34,295 nt of DNA from a virus. The notes beneath the pieces were generated by a model. The model ran no database searches, was not told the DNA's origin, and was given only the letters and a program-made list of their open reading frames with translations. The translations under genes were made by a program, and so were the position numbers. The first letter of the stretch is position 1; each line of letters begins with the position of its first letter. This document shows, one piece after another, positions 5,223 to 32,849 of the stretch. The stretch spans positions 1-34,295 of IMG/VR virus record IMGVR_UViG_3300036985_005997. The stretch is one strand, 5' to 3'.

Positions 5223-5849
5223 ATGGAGTATCTTATAAGTGAGAGTCAACTCAAATTAATTTTAAGTGAATCTAATGGTAATGGAAATATTACAGAAGAC
5301 CTTAAACAAATGTTTGAGTCTGTAAAACAAATGCTAATCACCAACGCAAATGTTTGGGGATTGAACGCAAAATTTTTAATCACTTGGGGTGCTGCATTGG
5401 GTGGTATGATTCTTCCACTAAAAAATTGGTTAGAAGGTCAATCAACTGATTTAACTCAAGAACAAGTATATCTTTTACTTTTAGGTATTGCATCAAATTA
5501 TTATTACGATAACTCAGATTTTATTAGAAAAGTTGTTGCTAAAATAAAGGATGAAGGGTTAATGGATATCTTTAAGAGATTATATTCCAAATCCGAAGAA
5601 TTAAAAAGAGCTTTAGAAGAGTTTTTACGAACAATTAAAATTAACGTATCAACAAACGCATCAATTGTTAGTTATGCATTTATTTTACCAATACTTCACG
5701 ACATTTATCAATTATATGATGGTGTTAATCCAAATGAATCATTAAAAATGATTATAAGTAGGATAATTGCTTCAGGTGTTGTATTAATTGGTGGTAGTAT
5801 CTTAACCACTTTTATTCAAAAAGTTATAAGTAAACTTTCAGGTAATTAA
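5223..5849 (+). CDS. Leader-tagged membrane protein
   Basis: It opens with the leader MEYLISESQLKLILSES, whose LSE fits the (I/L)xE cleavage rule. Three or four hydrophobic stretches follow: about 50-66 (FLITWGAALGGMILPL), 83-93 (VYLLLLGIASN), 147-160 (IVSYAFILPILHD) and 182-200 (IIASGVVLIGGSILTTFI). It is probably a membrane-inserting protein of 208 residues. A leader plus membrane segments would suit an ejected virion protein; a holin-like role is an alternative. It converges with the gene at 5846, overlapping by 4 bases. Confidence 0.75.
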   Translation: MEYLISESQLKLILSESNGNGNITEDLKQMFESVKQMLITNANVWGLNAKFLITWGAALGGMILPLKNWLEGQSTDLTQEQVYLLLLGIASNYYYDNSDFIRKVVAKIKDEGLMDIFKRLYSKSEELKRALEEFLRTIKINVSTNASIVSYAFILPILHDIYQLYDGVNPNESLKMIISRIIASGVVLIGGSILTTFIQKVISKLSGN

Positions 5850-19136: not shown

Positions 19137-19394
19137 TTAATATCTTCCGGTAAGGAAGACAAATACCACTTCAGGAATTTTAGTACAAATAGCGTCGTTA
19201 CCATTTTTATCAACACACGCATATTCAGGTAAATCTTTTGCCCATCTTCTCATTTGTCTTGGGCCAGTCATTAAACGATTTGCAACATAATCTCTATTCC
19301 AAAGTTTGTCTTTATCATAATATTCTTCGGTGATAACTTTTTTTACCAAATCAATTAATTCAGACTCTGTCAATTTAATAATTTTCTTTCCCAT
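19137..19394 (-). CDS. Leader-tagged protein (RLTESDL type), 85 aa
   Basis: The leader IIKLTESELIDLVKKVITEE ends in VITE|E. The rest, about 60 residues, is basic with two Cys (EYACVDKNGNDAICTK) and is unassigned. It is the last gene of the operon that begins with the nuclease-like protein at 20979. Confidence 0.75.
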   Translation of the reverse strand: MGKKIIKLTESELIDLVKKVITEEYYDKDKLWNRDYVANRLMTGPRQMRRWAKDLPEYACVDKNGNDAICTKIPEVVFVFLTGRY

Positions 19395-19396
19395 AA

Positions 19397-19741
19397 CTAT
19401 TTTTTTCTAAATTTAACCATTAACCCATCAAAATCACTGCCCATAATATCTCTATTAAATAAAAACGAACCTCCTTTTGGATGCCAACCATAAAAAAGTT
19501 TGGCTTCTTTTGGAAAGTCTTTTTTAAAGTCTTCATAACTTTTATAGATTTTGTCAAATTCATATTTTTCGGTTGTCATTGGGTCAACCGATTCAAAAGT
19601 TGAATCAACAAAAGAATCGTAATCAACCCCAAAAATCTTTTCGGTGTAGTCAAATTTTTCAAATTTTTCTACGGGTGGCTTATCTAATATTTTTGAAACC
19701 AATCTGTTTATGTCTGAAGTTTCTGGTTTAGAGGTTTTCAT
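19397..19741 (-). CDS. Hypothetical protein, 114 aa
   Basis: Its ATG overlaps the stop of the nuclease-like gene by 4 bases. It has a Lys/Asp/Phe-rich sequence with HPKGGSFLFNRDIMGSDFDG near the C-terminus. The N-terminus (SDINRLVSKILDKPP) is amphipathic but does not match the leader rule. Co-translation suggests a functional link to the nuclease-like protein. Confidence 0.7.
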   Translation of the reverse strand: MKTSKPETSDINRLVSKILDKPPVEKFEKFDYTEKIFGVDYDSFVDSTFESVDPMTTEKYEFDKIYKSYEDFKKDFPKEAKLFYGWHPKGGSFLFNRDIMGSDFDGLMVKFRKK

Positions 19742-20979
19742 AAATTTATTTTGTAAAAAATTGTATAGTTTATGTCACCATACCTTCCGGTTTTAGTGTC
19801 ATTCTTTTTAGTCTTTATAATAGTGTTTTCAACATCAACCAAATCTCTAACTTTTCCTCCCTGAACAATCTCAACATATTTAACATTCTTTGGTATTTGT
19901 TCTGCAGAGACACTAGAACCATTACAAAATTTGTAATAGTTTTTATTGTCAGGACTCCAAGGAGTTAATGTTTTACAATTTATGGTGAACGTACCTTTTT
20001 TATTTGATTTTTGAACTAATAGTTCTGGCTCAACTTTTTTACTAACACCAATTGGTTTATCAGTTTCATACCAATTACCGAGTTTTTTATATGAAACAAA
20101 ACACTTACACCCACCTTGGTTGTAGTCCCATATTTTAAGATTTCCCGAAGCACCTCTTTCAGAACTTTTTACTTGTAATGGAAAATATTGACCATCTCTG
20201 AAAACCAAAACGTCAATACCCAACATATCTACAATCCCAAAATCATCACCAAAGGCAATAAATCTCTCACCTTCCTGTGACAAATAATTTAAATACTCTT
20301 CTTCATTTTTGTCACCTTTACTTTTGATATTTTCAATCGCATCAACAATCTTTCTTCTAATGTGATTTGGTTTAACCAACACATCTCTTAGATAACCGAC
20401 TAATTTGTCCAAGCCTAAAACGTTTCTGAAAAACAAATCAACAATTTCTTCAGGCGATTTTGTGGGTTCATGGTGAATCGCATACTCAGTCATTAAAATT
20501 GACAAACCTGAGGTATTTGTATTAAGTCTATTTAATAACGAATAATTCAATATCTCACCATCTTCAGTTACTTTCTTGTAGAGTAACATGTATTTTCCTT
20601 TGGATTGCAAATCTTTCAATGAATTAGTTGCAACCTCTTTGAGTCTACCACAAGAAGGTGATACCTTGTTGATTAGTTTTTCCAAATCATAAACTTTACG
20701 TTTATAAATTTCTTGGAAATCTTTAATGTTTTTATAAATTACTTTATACTCTCCTTCAGTTTCTTGTTCAACAAGATTTAAGGCTCTCTGAATTCTCCTG
20801 AATAAATTATTCCATTTTGATTCAGAACCCCTTTTGGGCATTTTTTCCAAAATTTGATATACCGACCTACAGAATTGGTTGGATGACGAGTCTGTAAATG
20901 TTTTACACGCCTCTCCAACAAAATCTTTAGATTCTGTAATTAAAACTTTTAATTGTGATTCTGAAATTAAAATTTCCAT
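19738..20979 (-). CDS. Leader-tagged PD-(D/E)xK-like nuclease candidate
   Basis: The leader MEILISESQLKVLITES (LITE|S) is followed by about 210 helical residues. A nuclease-like core then appears at 236-273: an upstream acidic helix (EGERFIAFGDD), IDVLVF with Asp256, and QYFPLQVKSS with Gln269-Val-Lys271. The D...(E/Q)xK order is that of PD-(D/E)xK enzymes, with Gln in place of Glu, as is seen in some families. Four Cys residues lie downstream. If packaged, it could act on host DNA at entry. The fold call is by eye only. Confidence 0.6.
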   Translation of the reverse strand: MEILISESQLKVLITESKDFVGEACKTFTDSSSNQFCRSVYQILEKMPKRGSESKWNNLFRRIQRALNLVEQETEGEYKVIYKNIKDFQEIYKRKVYDLEKLINKVSPSCGRLKEVATNSLKDLQSKGKYMLLYKKVTEDGEILNYSLLNRLNTNTSGLSILMTEYAIHHEPTKSPEEIVDLFFRNVLGLDKLVGYLRDVLVKPNHIRRKIVDAIENIKSKGDKNEEEYLNYLSQEGERFIAFGDDFGIVDMLGIDVLVFRDGQYFPLQVKSSERGASGNLKIWDYNQGGCKCFVSYKKLGNWYETDKPIGVSKKVEPELLVQKSNKKGTFTINCKTLTPWSPDNKNYYKFCNGSSVSAEQIPKNVKYVEIVQGGKVRDLVDVENTIIKTKKNDTKTGRYGDINYTIFYKINL

Positions 20980-21575: not shown

Positions 21576-22676
21576 TTAGTAACTTACGGTTTGTATATTA
21601 CCTTGTCTTGTTATTTGTGGTGGTGTTTGTATGCCTTGTGTAACATTAGCCAATCCTTTTGGTTGAATATTCATAATCTCTTGAGGTACTCGTTTATCAG
21701 CTTCAGGTGTTGTTGAACTAAACAATACATTATAAGTTGACTTACCTACTTTACCATCTTCTTTAAGACCTTTAGCCTTTTGGAATGCTCTAACCGCAGC
21801 ATCTGTTTTAGAACCAAAATAACTTGTTGGTTTGGTAATTTTTAAGAATCCTTGTGAAATTAAAGCTTGTTGAATTTTTTTAACAAAATCTCCCGACATT
21901 GTTGATTCAACAAATGCTCTACCCGATTTGACAGCATCTTCAGTTGGTGCAACTCGGACATTACCTATTTGAGGTGTCGCCGAACCTCCATCTTTCTGAT
22001 ATGACATTTTTCCATTTACAATTGACCAATTACCTTTAGACGTTAGTTTTGAACCGTCCTTGGTATATTGAAAATATCTTTGTGTCCCTGTTTTTGGGTC
22101 TAACACAAAGAATACTTTTGAGTTGGGGAATTGTTTCAAAGCGGCATCAATACCACTTATTTTACCCTTAACAGCATCTGAGAACACTGTTTTGACTGTA
22201 TCAAGAACACTTCCACCTGTTGCCGCAGCACCACCTCCACCAACAGTTTTTGAAACATTTACCACAAATGAATTTGGTTCAACACTCACAGTTCCTTGTT
22301 CAGGACGAGATGTGTTTTTGGCACCTTTAAATGTTAAATCAACTCCAATTCTTTTCAAAGAATTTTTAATTCTTTCAGCACTTTTATAATCACCTATTTC
22401 CAATTCACCGTTTAAAACGTCTTGGATAGAACTATATGTTTGACCACCAAAAGCTTGACCTATCCAAGGATTTGACTTGATTTGATTATCTAAATTAACA
22501 AAATCTTCTTTAGACTTTAAAGATGCAAATAACTCTTCAAGTCCCTTTTCGTTTGTACCAGCACCTGACGCAGCATTCTTTAATGCCGTCAAATAATCCT
22601 GTGCTTGTTCCTTAATAACTTTCTGAACAATCCTACGAATATCAGTTTCAGTTAATCTAATTACTCTTTTTTTCAT
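21576..22676 (-). CDS. Leader-tagged peptidoglycan-binding protein
   Basis: The leader VIRLTETDIRRIVQKVIKEQ (VIKE|Q) is followed by an annexin-repeat-like stretch (GAGTNEKGLEELFASLKS, about 38-55), a Gly/Ala-rich linker and a PG_binding_1-type domain at 263-318 (DFVKKIQQALISQGFL, FGSKTDAAVRAFQKAKGL, DGKVGKSTYNVL). The length is 366 residues. Wall binding plus the leader suggests a virion protein involved in entry or tail-tip function. The enzymatic domain, if any, is not visible. Confidence 0.82.
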   Translation of the reverse strand: MKKRVIRLTETDIRRIVQKVIKEQAQDYLTALKNAASGAGTNEKGLEELFASLKSKEDFVNLDNQIKSNPWIGQAFGGQTYSSIQDVLNGELEIGDYKSAERIKNSLKRIGVDLTFKGAKNTSRPEQGTVSVEPNSFVVNVSKTVGGGGAAATGGSVLDTVKTVFSDAVKGKISGIDAALKQFPNSKVFFVLDPKTGTQRYFQYTKDGSKLTSKGNWSIVNGKMSYQKDGGSATPQIGNVRVAPTEDAVKSGRAFVESTMSGDFVKKIQQALISQGFLKITKPTSYFGSKTDAAVRAFQKAKGLKEDGKVGKSTYNVLFSSTTPEADKRVPQEIMNIQPKGLANVTQGIQTPPQITRQGNIQTVSY

Positions 22677-23194: not shown

Positions 23195-24376
23195 ATGGAA
23201 ATAAAACCCAAACTTTACAAACTGATTAAAAGATTCATTACCCAAAGCACCAAAGGTAGTGATGTGTTTATACATAATGGTTCCAAATGGATAATATTTG
23301 TAGAAGACAAAAAATGGGTAATTGAGTTAACTAAAGAAGGAACTTTGTGGTACAATTACTATTTTTTTCAAAATATTTTTGAATTGGTTGATTTAGATGT
23401 TGTAGAAAACCAACATTACATTACCAAATGGGTTGAAGACACCATAATAAATGGGGTGAAATCCGTAAAAGGGGAGTATTATAAAGAAATTCAAAAAGTT
23501 GAATACACCATTCAAAATGGGGTGAAAAAGACCCGTAGAAACGGGGATTCAATGAATACCGAGGCTGAAGATGCCATTCAAAATGGGGTGAAAGAGACCT
23601 TTGAGGGTATCGGAACAGAGGGAATCCACGTTGAAGATGTCATTCAAAATGGGGTGAAACACACCTCTTGGGACCCGACCGGCAAGAAGTCTTTGGTTGA
23701 AGACACCATACAAAATGGGGTGATACACACCATAGACACCACACATCATAAAAACAAATTGGTTGAAGATGCCATTCAAAATGGGGTGAAAGACACCCGC
23801 CTACAATACCACTTACTAGGAAACCAAGTTGAGGACACCATACAAAATGGGGTAAAAGAAACTCATTCAGGTTGTGACCTTCTTATTAATGATAAAGTTG
23901 AAGACACCATTGAAAATGGGGTGAAATATACTGGTGGAATAGGTAATCCAATGTGGATGGGTGGTAGAGTTGAAGACACCATAGAAAATGGGGTGAAACG
24001 AACTAGCGGAAACAAAATTCCTGGTTTATGTGAAATTGAAGACACCATACAAAATGGGGTGAAAAAAACCTACTCAGATAAAATTCCTCATGAATATGAT
24101 TGGTCTAACCAATTTACAGAAGAAATTGACGACATTATTCAAAATGGGGTTAAACACACCGAAAAATCTCTACAAATTGATGGTTCTTGTGTTATTGAAG
24201 ATGTTATAAAGGAGGGTGTCAAACATACTGAATATGGTGATTGGTTAGATGGTGATGAAAGATTTGATGATGTGATTCGTGATGGTGTAAAGGAGACGTG
24301 GGGATATGAGAAACAATCTCAGGATAGAATAAATGAGGTTATTGAAAATGGAACAAAAGAAAACCCCTCCTTTTAA
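23195..24376 (+). CDS. Repeat protein with 14 VEDTIQNGVK units
   Basis: The start at 23195 is set by TATATTTG 4 bases upstream. The 393-residue product has a non-repeat N-terminus (1-79) with a basic, aromatic WIIFVEDKKWVIEL segment, then 14 copies of a core reading (V/I)ED(T/A/V)I(Q/E)NGVKxT from residue 80 to near the end. Variable hydrophilic linkers of about 8-20 residues separate the cores. The last three copies are degenerate. No signal peptide or membrane segment is seen. Function is unknown; a repeat scaffold or binding protein is plausible. The family is not recognised. Confidence 0.85.
   Translation: MEIKPKLYKLIKRFITQSTKGSDVFIHNGSKWIIFVEDKKWVIELTKEGTLWYNYYFFQNIFELVDLDVVENQHYITKWVEDTIINGVKSVKGEYYKEIQKVEYTIQNGVKKTRRNGDSMNTEAEDAIQNGVKETFEGIGTEGIHVEDVIQNGVKHTSWDPTGKKSLVEDTIQNGVIHTIDTTHHKNKLVEDAIQNGVKDTRLQYHLLGNQVEDTIQNGVKETHSGCDLLINDKVEDTIENGVKYTGGIGNPMWMGGRVEDTIENGVKRTSGNKIPGLCEIEDTIQNGVKKTYSDKIPHEYDWSNQFTEEIDDIIQNGVKHTEKSLQIDGSCVIEDVIKEGVKHTEYGDWLDGDERFDDVIRDGVKETWGYEKQSQDRINEVIENGTKENPSF
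23432..24364 (+). repeat. In-frame tandem DNA repeats, about 36 bp core, 14 copies
   Basis: Each core resembles GAAGACACCATTCAAAATGG followed by GGTGAAA and an Acc-type codon, with a period of about 60-85 bases. Copies 2-10 are nearly identical in DNA and the 3' copies diverge, as after recent unequal amplification. The linkers differ freely. Confidence 0.85.
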
Positions 24377-24388
24377 GAGGGGTTTTTT
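24360..24388. terminator. Bidirectional terminator between convergent genes
   Basis: AAAACCCCTC/GAGGGGTTTT stem plus T run. It overlaps the repeat gene's stop (24374-24376) and lies just past the stop of the minus gene at 24392. Confidence 0.85.
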
Positions 24389-24391
24389 ATT

Positions 24392-25237
24392 TTAGTGTTT
24401 CATTAATTTTCTTCTTTCACCATTATCGTATATTTCAATATACGGTATACCTTCTTTGATGTCTTTAATTGGTCTACCCATCATATCATACATACCAATT
24501 AGTTTTGGTTCAGGACGAGTCAAATTAACCACGTTAGATATTGGTCCCGATTTACAAACGTCCAAACGTCTGAACATGAAAGTATCCTGTCTCAAGCACT
24601 TATTCCACCACTGGGCGTACATTAACACACGTCCACTATCTTTAAATGTAAATTCAGCTAATCGTGTTTGAGTATATCCTAAAAAATCAGCGTCTGGAAA
24701 ATCATACTCCATACCAATTTGGTAATCAGTCAAATTATCCCATTCTTTTTGAGACATAGTATCCATCCAAGGTCCTTTATAAAATACCATATAGTATTCC
24801 ATACAAGTGTCTTTTACTGACATGCCTTTAGTATAGTTCATTTCAAACTTATATTTTTTACAATTAAGTGAATTCACAACCCATCCTAATCCAGCACCTG
24901 GAAATTGAACGATTTCGATTGGACGATATAAAGTTGTATCACATTTTTTACAACGGTTCCATACCTTCAAATACAATTTGTATTTACCTTTAACGTTGAA
25001 TTGAACCTCAACAATGCCACGAACATCATAAACGGTATCAGTTTTCTTGGTTTGGAAATCGTAAACCATAAACGTGTAATCAACACAGGTGTCATCCAAC
25101 ACTTGGCCACTCACTTGCCACTTGTAGTAATTACGTTCATTCCATTGTTTGAGTTTTAATGTGTTCCAATCACATTTTGCGGATAAAGACAGTGCTGTCG
25201 TTAAGACAAACACAAGAGTCATTAGTAGTTTTTTCAT
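24392..25237 (-). CDS. Secreted two-domain protein with a T9SS-like C-terminal domain
   Basis: Residues 1-20 form a signal peptide (MKKLLMTLVFVLTTALSLSA). Two similar domains follow, each ending in a W-N-(K/R)-C...DT pattern (VWNRCKKCDTTLYRP near 91-105, WWNKCLRQDTFMFRR near 210-224), Cys-rich and perhaps PKD-like. The last 40 residues (KLIGMYDMMGRPIKDI, then YIEIYDNGERRKLM) resemble the type A sorting domain of Bacteroidota type IX secretion. The protein is predicted to leave the cell or be displayed on its surface. A surface-alteration role is inferred. Confidence 0.75.
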   Translation of the reverse strand: MKKLLMTLVFVLTTALSLSAKCDWNTLKLKQWNERNYYKWQVSGQVLDDTCVDYTFMVYDFQTKKTDTVYDVRGIVEVQFNVKGKYKLYLKVWNRCKKCDTTLYRPIEIVQFPGAGLGWVVNSLNCKKYKFEMNYTKGMSVKDTCMEYYMVFYKGPWMDTMSQKEWDNLTDYQIGMEYDFPDADFLGYTQTRLAEFTFKDSGRVLMYAQWWNKCLRQDTFMFRRLDVCKSGPISNVVNLTRPEPKLIGMYDMMGRPIKDIKEGIPYIEIYDNGERRKLMKH

Positions 25238-25328
25238 ATATGTTTTTTTGTTTTATTTGTCTATCCGATATTGCTATAATAGCAATGAAAACCCCGATTA
25301 AAATAAATGCGTATGGGTTTAGTTTCAT
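25170..25328 (-). CDS. Possible small membrane ORF overlapping the secreted gene
   Basis: Begins MKLNPYAFILIGVFIAIIAI, a membrane segment, then a 32-residue hydrophilic tail that overlaps the next gene's start by 68 bases in another frame. A host-type promoter (TATATTTG) sits 6 bases before its ATG. It may be a real leader gene or a by-product of the 5' region of the secreted gene. Confidence 0.4.
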   Translation of the reverse strand: MKLNPYAFILIGVFIAIIAISDRQIKQKNIYEKTTNDSCVCLNDSTVFIRKM

Positions 25329-25334
25329 AATTAA

Positions 25335-25342
25335 CAAATATA
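25335..25342 (-). promoter_or_regulatory. Bacteroidota-type promoter (TATATTTG) of the secreted-protein unit
   Basis: The only host-type box upstream of the secreted gene, 97 bases before its ATG and 6 before the small ORF. Confidence 0.6.
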
Positions 25343-25383: not shown

Positions 25384-25406
25384 AACCCTCACAATTGGTG
25401 AGGGTT
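25384..25406 (-). terminator. Terminator of the gene at 26184
   Basis: AACCCTCAC/GTGAGGGTT stem, 5-base loop and a T run on the minus strand, 4 bases after the stop. Confidence 0.85.
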
Positions 25407-25410
25407 AGTT

Positions 25411-26184
25411 TTATTTATCAATTTTACTCCACCATTCATTTGGTTCAGAAGGCATTGTTAGTCCACCAATAAAATTCGCATCCTTTAAATGCTCCATCTC
25501 TTGGTCTTGATGTAAGCTATTGGGAAGGTACAATAATGTCGGATTCTTCTTTTGAATGTCAGGAACATCACCTTGTAAAGACATAACCTTGTTAAACTCC
25601 ATCACATCAAATCGTTTAGTTATTAAATGATATCCGTTTTTAGTTGGAATGACCTTAATTACTTTTGGGGTATAATCATAAGTTATTTCCACAGAACCAT
25701 CTGACTTATGTAAATGAGTTTCATTTGCTATCTCTAACGGTTTGCAACCATTATTAATGAGGTCCATAATTTTTATTAATGCGTTCTCATCTTTCATATC
25801 AACATCCACAATCCATCTTTTTTCACTGGTTTTAATTTGACCAACGACAGAATCAAACAATCCTTTCTGATTATGTTGACCATTTTGTATACGTTGAGCC
25901 AAGTCAACCATCATATTTAATGAAACATCGAAGTGATTTTGTTTTTGGACATGGATATATGCACGTGCTTTAAACATCTCACAAAGTTGTTTAATCTCAT
26001 CGTACCTACGCTCAAGGTGGTCAATACTTTCAATACAATAGGTCTTAATAGTCCTTACCGATTGATGATTGTCCTTTTCATTCTCAGGTTGGTCTTTCTT
26101 TCTTTTGAAGACATAAAGCATGTAGAAGTCACCTTCGTCTTCAAAGTTCAATAGGGATTTGATAAGTTCAAGGTTGTTAATCAT
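25411..26184 (-). CDS. Conserved phage protein, weakly primase-like, 257 aa
   Basis: The order FYMLYVFKRKKD (20-31), RAYIHVQKQ, RWIVDVDMKDEN (123-134) and PTKNGYHLITKRFD (180-193) recalls a family of large-phage proteins with text of the form KWIVDID...PTxNGxHLIT. A DxD pair and a GxH motif in that order are loosely reminiscent of archaeo-eukaryotic primases, but I would not assign that fold. It is a single gene with its own host-type promoter and terminator. Confidence 0.72.
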   Translation of the reverse strand: MINNLELIKSLLNFEDEGDFYMLYVFKRKKDQPENEKDNHQSVRTIKTYCIESIDHLERRYDEIKQLCEMFKARAYIHVQKQNHFDVSLNMMVDLAQRIQNGQHNQKGLFDSVVGQIKTSEKRWIVDVDMKDENALIKIMDLINNGCKPLEIANETHLHKSDGSVEITYDYTPKVIKVIPTKNGYHLITKRFDVMEFNKVMSLQGDVPDIQKKNPTLLYLPNSLHQDQEMEHLKDANFIGGLTMPSEPNEWWSKIDK

Positions 26185-29492: not shown

Positions 29493-29840
29493 TTATTCCC
29501 CTTTCAATTCTTGTACTAATGTATAAATAAGTGAAATAAGTGTTCCACCAACAACAACATCACCAGCCGGGGTTCTTGCAATAGGGTCGGTACCTTTTGT
29601 TATCATGTTATACGCTTCAGGGTCAAGTTGTTTCATTGCTTTCAATACTTTCATCATAATAAGATTATTCCCAGATAATGTCTTAGCTTGAGATTTAACT
29701 CGTGATAACATTGAAGAATCAAAAACAGGATTAACATCCTTAGGGGTTACATTTGTTGGTTGTACCACACCCTGTTCTTTTAAAACCTTACGAACTATCT
29801 GAGTTAATTCTCTTTCGTTTAGTCTGATAACTTTTTTCAT
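29493..29840 (-). CDS. Leader-tagged protein (RLNERELTQI type), 115 aa
   Basis: VIRLNERELTQIVRKVLKEQ ends in VLKE|Q. The mature part is helical (MLSRVKSQAKTLSGNNLIMM, then LISLIYTLVQELKGE) with a hydrophobic C-terminal segment. Second gene of the operon, 2 bases from its neighbour. Not recognised. Confidence 0.75.
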   Translation of the reverse strand: MKKVIRLNERELTQIVRKVLKEQGVVQPTNVTPKDVNPVFDSSMLSRVKSQAKTLSGNNLIMMKVLKAMKQLDPEAYNMITKGTDPIARTPAGDVVVGGTLISLIYTLVQELKGE

Positions 29841-29842
29841 AA

Positions 29843-30586
29843 TTATTTAATTCTTTTCAGTTGTGTAAAACAACCCAATTCCGAGTTACCACATAAACCA
29901 TTAGGTATACCGTTCGCAATCTCAGATGGAATTGAGATACTTAGGGCGAATTTTTGAGGAAATTTTCTTCCTTGATAAACACCCGGTCCGTTAATATTTG
30001 CCCAAACGTCTCTACCATCAACCTCTCCAATTGTAAGAGTGTATTTTTGGTTTTTAGAATCTAAATCCTGAGGTCCGTTCTTCCATGCTGGGACTCTAAT
30101 TCCTTCATAAACTTGGTTTATTTGATATTTAGAGGGTGATGTTTGTTCTTGAATTGACATTTTACCTACGGGTGAAAATGATTTGAAGAAATTTTGCAAA
30201 TCAGATGATATTTTATCCACATTATCAAAATTAATCATCACCTCTCCACCAATAACGTCCGTTTTATATCCTTTGTTAGACCACCACTTAAAAAGTGATG
30301 ATAATAGTTGTTTATTATCTGACATCAAATAAAACGATTCATGAGCATCACTCGCAGCTAACCCATAATCTGCGTTTGAAGTTTTGGTAGTACCCCAATT
30401 CAAACTTTGACTAGGGTTTCCGTCAAAATCTTTAAATGTTAAAACTTTTGGACTTCCAATATTTCTTAATACGTTAAATAACTTAATCCATCTTGGATTA
30501 TTTCTACCTTTTGTTACTTGTTCTTGAATCACTCGTTTAACAATACGAGCCAAATCGGCTTCTGTTAGTCTGATAACTTTTTTCAT
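29843..30586 (-). CDS. Leader-tagged protein (RLTEADL type), 247 aa
   Basis: VIRLTEADLARIVKRVIQEQ ends in VIQE|Q. The mature part is Trp/Asn-rich with an EQTSPSKYQINQVYEGI repeat of leader-like text in the middle, followed by a beta domain (KYTLTIGEVDGRDVWANING). It heads the six-gene operon ending at 27629. Not recognised. Confidence 0.75.
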   Translation of the reverse strand: MKKVIRLTEADLARIVKRVIQEQVTKGRNNPRWIKLFNVLRNIGSPKVLTFKDFDGNPSQSLNWGTTKTSNADYGLAASDAHESFYLMSDNKQLLSSLFKWWSNKGYKTDVIGGEVMINFDNVDKISSDLQNFFKSFSPVGKMSIQEQTSPSKYQINQVYEGIRVPAWKNGPQDLDSKNQKYTLTIGEVDGRDVWANINGPGVYQGRKFPQKFALSISIPSEIANGIPNGLCGNSELGCFTQLKRIK

Positions 30587-32174: not shown

Positions 32175-32519
32175 TTATTTACCTCTTAGTTTTCTAATTT
32201 TAAGTGGTAACTCACGACCTGGTTTATAGTGTTGGTCATAGTAATCCTTTTCTCTTTTAAAATCCCACTTATTTGGAATATCTTTTGTATAATCTAAGAA
32301 TTTTTCATAGTCATCACGACCAAACTCAATTTCCTCTTCAAAATCCTCAATATCAAGTGGATTAACCGCTCTATCATCTTCATCGAACCATGAGTTGGGC
32401 ATCCAACTTCTAATTCTATAATTACCACGAAGTTTTTTAGGCATTTCTTCTTGTTCGGAAATAACTCTTTTAACAATACGAATCAAATCGGATTCTGTTA
32501 GTCTAACAATCTTTTTCAT
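32175..32519 (-). CDS. Leader-tagged protein, tandem paralogue 1, 114 aa
   Basis: The leader IVRLTESDLIRIVKRVISEQ ends in VISE|Q. The mature part contains EFGRDDYEKFLDYTKDIP then KWDF, aligned with the neighbour's EFGPEDYDSFMEYINNCN then RWCL, so the two are duplicates. Its tail is basic. Function unknown; it probably shares a transcript with 32541, with a 21-base gap. Confidence 0.78.
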   Translation of the reverse strand: MKKIVRLTESDLIRIVKRVISEQEEMPKKLRGNYRIRSWMPNSWFDEDDRAVNPLDIEDFEEEIEFGRDDYEKFLDYTKDIPNKWDFKREKDYYDQHYKPGRELPLKIRKLRGK

Positions 32520-32540: not shown

Positions 32541-32849
32541 TTATCTTCTAATCCCTTTACCTACGGTGATATTACCTTTATTGGCATACATATCATACAT
32601 TCTTTTTGTGGTTAAACACCATCTTGTATTACAGTTGTTTATGTACTCCATGAAACTATCGTAATCTTCAGGACCGAACTCTCTTGTTTCAGAAAATTCA
32701 ATATCTGAATCCACACGTCTATCCATAGTGTCATAATACTTTCCGTCATGAGCATCATGAGTTGCAAACATTTCCTCCTCTTGCTCTTTTATAACTCTTT
32801 TAACAATACGAGTCAAATCGGATTCTGTAAGTCTAACAATCTTTTTCAT
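32541..32849 (-). CDS. Leader-tagged protein, tandem paralogue 2, 102 aa
   Basis: The leader IVRLTESDLTRIVKRVIKEQ ends in VIKE|Q and is nearly identical in DNA to paralogue 1. The mature protein is acidic at first (HDAHDGKYYDTMDRR) and then shares the EFGxxDYxxFxxY core. Two Cys lie in NNCNTRWCL. Function unknown. Confidence 0.78.
   Translation of the reverse strand: MKKIVRLTESDLTRIVKRVIKEQEEEMFATHDAHDGKYYDTMDRRVDSDIEFSETREFGPEDYDSFMEYINNCNTRWCLTTKRMYDMYANKGNITVGKGIRR

Follow-up and report, generated by a model that had tools for sequence, protein, structure and literature searches.

A gene for a secreted protein in a virus genome raises the question of whether a phage can supply cargo of its own to the type IX secretion system (T9SS) of its host. 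The window, which is the whole stretch of DNA that was analysed, is a virus record of 34,295 bases that encodes a T4-type RNA ligase/tail fibre attachment catalyst, a thymidylate synthase and an endolysin, the last being 73% identical to that of phage immuto (NC_055915; host Flavobacterium sp. LMO8). It is taken to be a large virus, with bacteria of the Flavobacteriales type as its likely hosts. The gene in question, P0001, is an ORF at 24392-25237 on the minus strand (stop codon included), whose 281-aa product is predicted to be a T9SS cargo protein. From the N-terminus onwards it is built of a signal peptide, a pair of mutually homologous domains that contain Cys, a flexible linker, and a three-stranded C-terminal mini-domain that ends in KLIGMYDMMGRPIKDIKEGIPYIEIYDNGERRKLMKH. 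The reading developed here, to which we give a probability of roughly three in four (0.77), is that P0001 is a phage-encoded cargo for the host T9SS that is displayed on the infected cell, and from its features we infer export, cleavage and attachment.

The earlier note had extended the gene to position 25328, where in fact a different ORF of 52 aa begins (25170-25328, minus strand; MKLNPYAFILIGVFIAIIAISDRQIKQKN...); this ORF overlaps the start of P0001 in another frame and contains one membrane-spanning stretch. A similar ORF occupies the same place in eight relatives (L001, L004, L006, L008, L017, L021, L022 and L029); a Pfam search with the 52-aa ORF gave no match, and it is possibly translationally coupled with P0001. 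A single TATATTTG octamer lies near P0001 at 25335-25342. It is common only to the near-identical upstream region of one relative (L008), and TANNTTTG octamers number 68 in the window against 54.9 expected. With a count near chance and conservation confined to L008, both the host-type promoter proposed for this gene and the early action deduced from it lose their basis. Terminator-like sites are more frequent than chance over the region (six, versus 0.6 in shuffles). A hairpin scan placed one of them at 25384-25406 (minus strand), 3′ of the upstream gene (25411-26184), so that P0001 would have its own transcript; another, bidirectional, hairpin at 24358-24388 separates P0001 from a convergent neighbour at 23198-24376 (plus strand). 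The product of this neighbour contains about a dozen VEDTIQNGVKHT repeats, one per ~28 residues, and a family search with it returned no match of note. Elsewhere in the window many otherwise unrelated proteins share a start of ~20 residues that ends in [L/I/V]xE (MKKVIRLTESDLxRIVKRVIKEQ, MEILISESQLKVLITES and similar), among them the products of 19137-19394, 19738-20979, 21576-22676, 29493-29840, 29843-30586, 32175-32519 and 32541-32849 on the minus strand and 5223-5849 on the plus strand; others exist. The resemblance of this start to a T4-type capsid-targeting sequence cut by a prohead protease is offered as an idea only.

The first 20 residues of P0001 (25178-25237, minus strand) form a signal peptide, MKKLLMTLVFVLTTALSLSA/K, that lacks a lipobox and is modelled as a helix over residues 2-19. 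All relatives with a complete N-terminus possess one, as the earlier note had described for P0001 itself. Domain 1 (residues 21-113; 24899-25177, minus strand), which carries a CxxCDT motif, and domain 2 (residues 114-228; 24554-24898, minus strand) are predicted to be Ig/FN3/PKD-like beta-sandwiches of about 93 and 115 residues, and the proposal of two similar Cys-containing domains is borne out by their mutual homology (hhalign probability 95). Some relatives have an extra domain that matches domain 1 at 98.8 (hhalign), and the extra third domain of one relative (L020) scores 23.3 bits (6.4e-5) against Pfam PKD, for which the cut-off is 23.5. An AlphaFold2 model built on 33 relatives (mean pLDDT 83) consists of two beta-sandwiches, a low-confidence linker and a tail of three strands, and Foldseek searches with this model retrieved only generic FN3/Ig folds, including FN3-type tail and Hoc proteins of phages. 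Eight residues, C22, C51, C96, C99, C126, C145, C214 and K277, are invariant (24/24). A weak NCBIfam listing of Shiga toxin B subunit was rejected since the match is confined to residues 1-45, signal peptide included; it scores 15-20 bits, whereas the cut-off, which applies over the whole 87-aa subunit, requires 165-203.

Relatives of P0001 are spread through a family of phages. Scans of IMG/VR recovered 11 and then at least 29 contigs with such relatives, up to 252 kb in size, and a scan of viral contigs with the tail only gave 43 contigs that overlap this set; a comparison of P0001 with 50,697 phage records gave no match. The body of the protein is under purifying selection, with a dN/dS of about 0.05-0.3. 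The number of viral contigs, the low dN/dS and the invariant residues together argue that the anatomy of P0001 is not due to chance. A conserved neighbourhood is found only with the nearest relatives (L008/L009), and the family, having no fixed genomic place, therefore behaves as a mobile accessory gene.

Behind domain 2 lies the linker (residues 229-243; 24509-24553, minus strand), where pLDDT falls below 50 at residues 232-239. It is the likely place of a PorU-type cleavage, and a cleavage-like motif, T/S-[GNSA]-[IV], is present in the linker of 25 of 37 relatives. The folded tail covers about residues 244-281 (24395-24508, minus strand), so that linker and tail together make up about 50 aa, and its three strands (246-250, 265-270 and 275-280) are modelled mostly at pLDDT 80-89. 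Three motifs can be recognised: B (IGMYDMMGR), a variant D (GIPYIEIY), and E (DGERRKLMK, with the invariant K277). Motif E and the motif B core, D-[MI]-x-G-[RK], are found in every family member (37/37), as is G254, and residue 250 is Y in most members, a few having F or V. The Gly of motif D is limited to a single member, that of the window itself (1/37), the rest having E/N-x-x-I-Y. All complete family C-termini inspected retain the tail, which stays at the extreme C-terminus while the number of passenger domains varies from two to three; the tail is thus a separate module.

The C-terminus had been likened to the type A sorting signal of the T9SS, and a comparison of its last residues with the sorting-domain HMM had been proposed, with lack of a match to count against the idea. 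Neither whole P0001 nor the tail alone matched the curated T9SS sorting-domain HMMs at E-values up to 10. The tails of two relatives, in G006/G007, reach only 11 bits to the type A HMM, against cut-offs of 23/27 bits (TIGR04183/PF18962), and where the seven-stranded Ig-like beta-sandwich of type A domains was sought in the P0001 tail, the model has three strands. Bacterial proteins with the same tail also escape the sorting-domain HMMs. Since bona fide short-tail proteins of the hosts fail as well, the outcome reflects the HMMs and not a missing signal. What stands of the earlier proposal is T9SS targeting, by way of a likeness to short CTDs and the exchange of tails on host proteins described below; the match to a type A HMM does not.

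When a profile of the tail was run over bacterial genome contigs, it led to Flavobacteriales (Crocinitomicaceae, Brumimicrobium, Flavobacterium) and a few Bacteroidales. The proteins that carry the tail in these hosts are mutually unrelated and include thioredoxin-like, kelch, DUF6055, LRR and other proteins. Over bacterial genomes and further viral contigs, 51 ORFs were examined, and in every one the tail lies 0-9 residues before the stop. Among the complete tail ORFs, 39 of 46 begin with a signal-peptide-like stretch, compared with 44 of 135 control ORFs (p = 4e-10). Five genomes encode 1-7 secreted proteins each with short tails. Some of the Flavobacteriales loci (L039, L043-L049, L052, L172-L180, L206-L215) encode secreted proteins missed by Pfam and NCBIfam, and the invisibility of this short sorting tail to both databases shows that Bacteroidota secretomes are undercounted. 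The mixed state of motif D is likewise a property of the bacterial short tails of Flavobacteriales.

The relationship of the short tail to full sorting domains is clearest on two host passengers. A thioredoxin-like passenger carries the short tail at three loci (L148, L149, L045) and a full type A CTD (PNP..., GxY...K) at another (L150, 42% identical) and in many more distant homologues. Similarly, an endonuclease I-type passenger has the short tail at L206-L209, L212, L213 and L215, the first of them from Brumimicrobium oceani, and a full type A CTD at L214 (62% identical), L220 (76% over part) and in further homologues, and either kind of tail sits directly behind the catalytic domain. The short tail and the full type A CTD thus replace each other on orthologous passengers, which is the strongest evidence that the short tail would act as a T9SS signal.

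Profile comparisons agree with this pattern. The phage tails align with the bacterial short tails over 41 columns at an hhalign probability of 99.3 (E 1.2e-20), and the phage tail region aligns with full CTDs of host-type genomes at a probability of 91.6 (score 32.5). As E-values of pairwise hhalign runs are uncalibrated, shuffles serve as the control: none of 300 column shuffles scored as high as the full-CTD match (mean 9.2, maximum 20.4), 3 of 300 reached it under a harder null in which blocks of eight columns were permuted, and the reversed profile and P0001's own domains gave background scores. In this alignment motif B (xYDxxGRxV) and motif E (K near the C-terminus) of the P0001 tail correspond to those of type A (TIGR04183/PF18962), whose place the short tail occupies on orthologous passengers. 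Unlike type A, the P0001 tail has about 40 aa rather than about 72-80, lacks the PNP/motif A region and the second sheet, and scores below the cut-off.

The closest known counterpart is a class of 48 'short CTDs' of 40-55 aa from Prevotella intermedia, in which motifs B, D and E lie close together (Ye et al. 2025, Open Biol 15:240335, PMC11969387). These form one three-stranded sheet that corresponds to strands 3, 6 and 7 in long CTDs; their cleavage is proven for five, attachment to a surface glycan has been shown, and P. intermedia is the only species reported to have both short and long CTDs (PMC11969387). According to a review, the C-terminal 22 residues of HBP35, which contain motifs D and E, are enough for GFP to be secreted (PMC10202324). 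The P0001 tail resembles the P. intermedia short CTDs in its position at the C-terminus behind a flexible linker, in the 40-55 aa range and the single three-stranded sheet, in the invariant Gly and strong Tyr of motif B, and in the invariant basic residue of motif E with an extra basic residue before it; a signal peptide on the cargo and coexistence with long CTDs are also common to both. The motif D Gly (GxY/GxN then Ile), by contrast, is absolute in P. intermedia and missing from nearly all phage copies, the short tails described here belong to Flavobacteriales and their phages, and export of P0001 is a prediction. Because the motif D Gly is lacking in the family, the tail is filed as a variant that, from sequence and model, would work like the short-CTD class and is not a strict member of it.

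If the tail is a T9SS signal, its carriers should possess the system. Among bacterial genomes that carry the tail, 30 of 31 encode the translocon component SprA (5/5 of the first five and 26/27 of the next 27, one being a repeat), versus 228 of 296 for the phylum as a whole (p = 0.004), a modest association because most Bacteroidota have SprA. Short tails were found phylum-wide in 5 of 296 genomes, too sparse for a presence/absence test, which is why tail genomes were compared with the background. Two Flavobacteriales MAGs have a chromosomal homologue of P0001 as a single gene (L040 3275-4126; L041 3275-4126) with no visible prophage and with genes for a glycosyltransferase, MarC, a short-chain dehydrogenase and DnaX as context; both genomes encode SprA, and each has 78-96 matches to the type A CTD. 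When bacterial genome contigs were scanned with the full-length profile no relative turned up, and these homologues surfaced only via the tail. In the tree they stand beside phage sequences L104/L105 (92/85, not starred), a placement that points to Flavobacteriales hosts and to gene exchange in either direction.

An alternative reading is that P0001 stays in the periplasm after Sec export, where its Ig-like domains would block genome entry by a second phage, and that the tail is a structural domain inherited from a host gene. A signal peptide alone would suffice for such a location, and the atypical motif D and the missing HMM match of the tail fit it as well. It leaves unexplained, however, why the tail is separate from the body, C-terminal and equipped with an invariant motif E lysine, and why full T9SS CTDs can take its place on host enzymes that would be expected to work outside the cell, and we consider this reading unlikely. 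A much less probable idea is that P0001 is a virion protein, such as a decoration or fibre with Ig/FN3-like domains in the phage particle, as the Foldseek matches to FN3-type tail and Hoc proteins might suggest. Those matches are to generic folds, no conserved neighbourhood of structural genes was found, and each relative with a complete N-terminus has a signal peptide, whereas virion proteins are assembled in the cytoplasm.

Cargo delivery to the T9SS is also supported by a second protein in related phages. Of 22 phage records that carry the tail gene, 8 also encode a protein of ~640 aa whose type A CTD scores above the cut-off. One such protein, checked in full, contains a cohesin domain, matches PF18962 at 52 bits and is encoded beside a GEVED protein and a lipoprotein with a weak likeness to CsgG. 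In the cultured phage immuto of Flavobacterium, the cohesin/type A protein has a split homologue; gp015 of this phage, a cohesin protein, is like P0001 in that a phage encodes it and that its C-terminal domain, inspected by eye, is type A-like, and differs in its unrelated passenger, with no P0001 homologue found among the 50,697 phage records. These second cargo proteins indicate that the phage group has used the T9SS route more than once. A conserved phage cluster (L198 3286-9132, L200, L202, L236 4870-10752) combines a cohesin protein with a T9SS type A CTD, a CsgG-like lipoprotein, a Ser/Gly/Asn-rich protein and a GEVED or lectin protein, and may be a phage-encoded outer-surface secretion island. 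That P0001 is a passenger gene, a host T9SS cargo gene acquired by chance and of no benefit to the phage, could account for the chromosomal homologues and the lack of a fixed place in phage genomes, but purifying selection on a gene that occurs in dozens of divergent phage contigs, together with the repeated carriage of a second T9SS cargo protein by the same phages, makes this highly improbable. T9SS targeting of P0001, still a prediction, is well supported by independent lines, among them the tail swap, the profile comparison, SprA, the likeness to short CTDs and the second cargo.

Phage-encoded T9SS cargo has one precedent, described in Cryophage and termed a unique occurrence (Bellas et al. 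2020, PMC7468147); no further report was found in the literature searched, and others may exist. As with P0001, these are genes of a Bacteroidota phage with T9SS sorting signals and the same proposed use of the host T9SS, and superinfection exclusion has been suggested for them too (PMC7468147). In Cryophage the cargo consists of enzymes or PA14 proteins, whose type A domains are recognisable and whose genes lie in variable islands, whereas P0001 belongs to a conserved and apparently non-enzymatic Ig-like family whose short tail is missed by databases.

As a phage-encoded T9SS cargo, P0001 would be carried to the periplasm by Sec through its signal peptide, and the two disulphide-type Ig/FN3-like domains and the three-stranded tail would fold there. 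The tail, as a short form of T9SS CTD, would then dock on the SprA/PorV translocon of the host, and P0001 would be passed through the outer membrane by the host T9SS. The linker would probably be cut, with P0001 ending up at the surface of the infected cell or close to it. A benefit at the surface is the most likely one, and a weaker proposal than targeting: a non-enzymatic binding protein could mask or alter the T9SS-built surface that is used by flavobacterial phages and so bring about superinfection exclusion, or surface P0001 could change adhesion and cell-cell contact.

T9SS and gliding mutants of Flavobacterium columnare are phage resistant (PMC9233685), which implies that the T9SS-built surface matters for phage infection and is contested between phage and host. 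By supplying the T9SS with a protein of its own, a phage would offer a direct test of how infected Bacteroidota cells are re-surfaced, and the cultured relative immuto, growing on Flavobacterium sp. LMO8, makes experiments possible. A functional-looking short signal that had been reported for a single Prevotella species is also present in Flavobacteriales and their phages. On a broader view, for which we see the chances as evenly balanced, large Flavobacteriales phages would run a conserved T9SS programme of surface rebuilding with at least two cargo proteins, one of them bearing a minimal, HMM-invisible signal exchanged with host genes, and a whole class of short signals in Flavobacteriales would have been missed by annotation.
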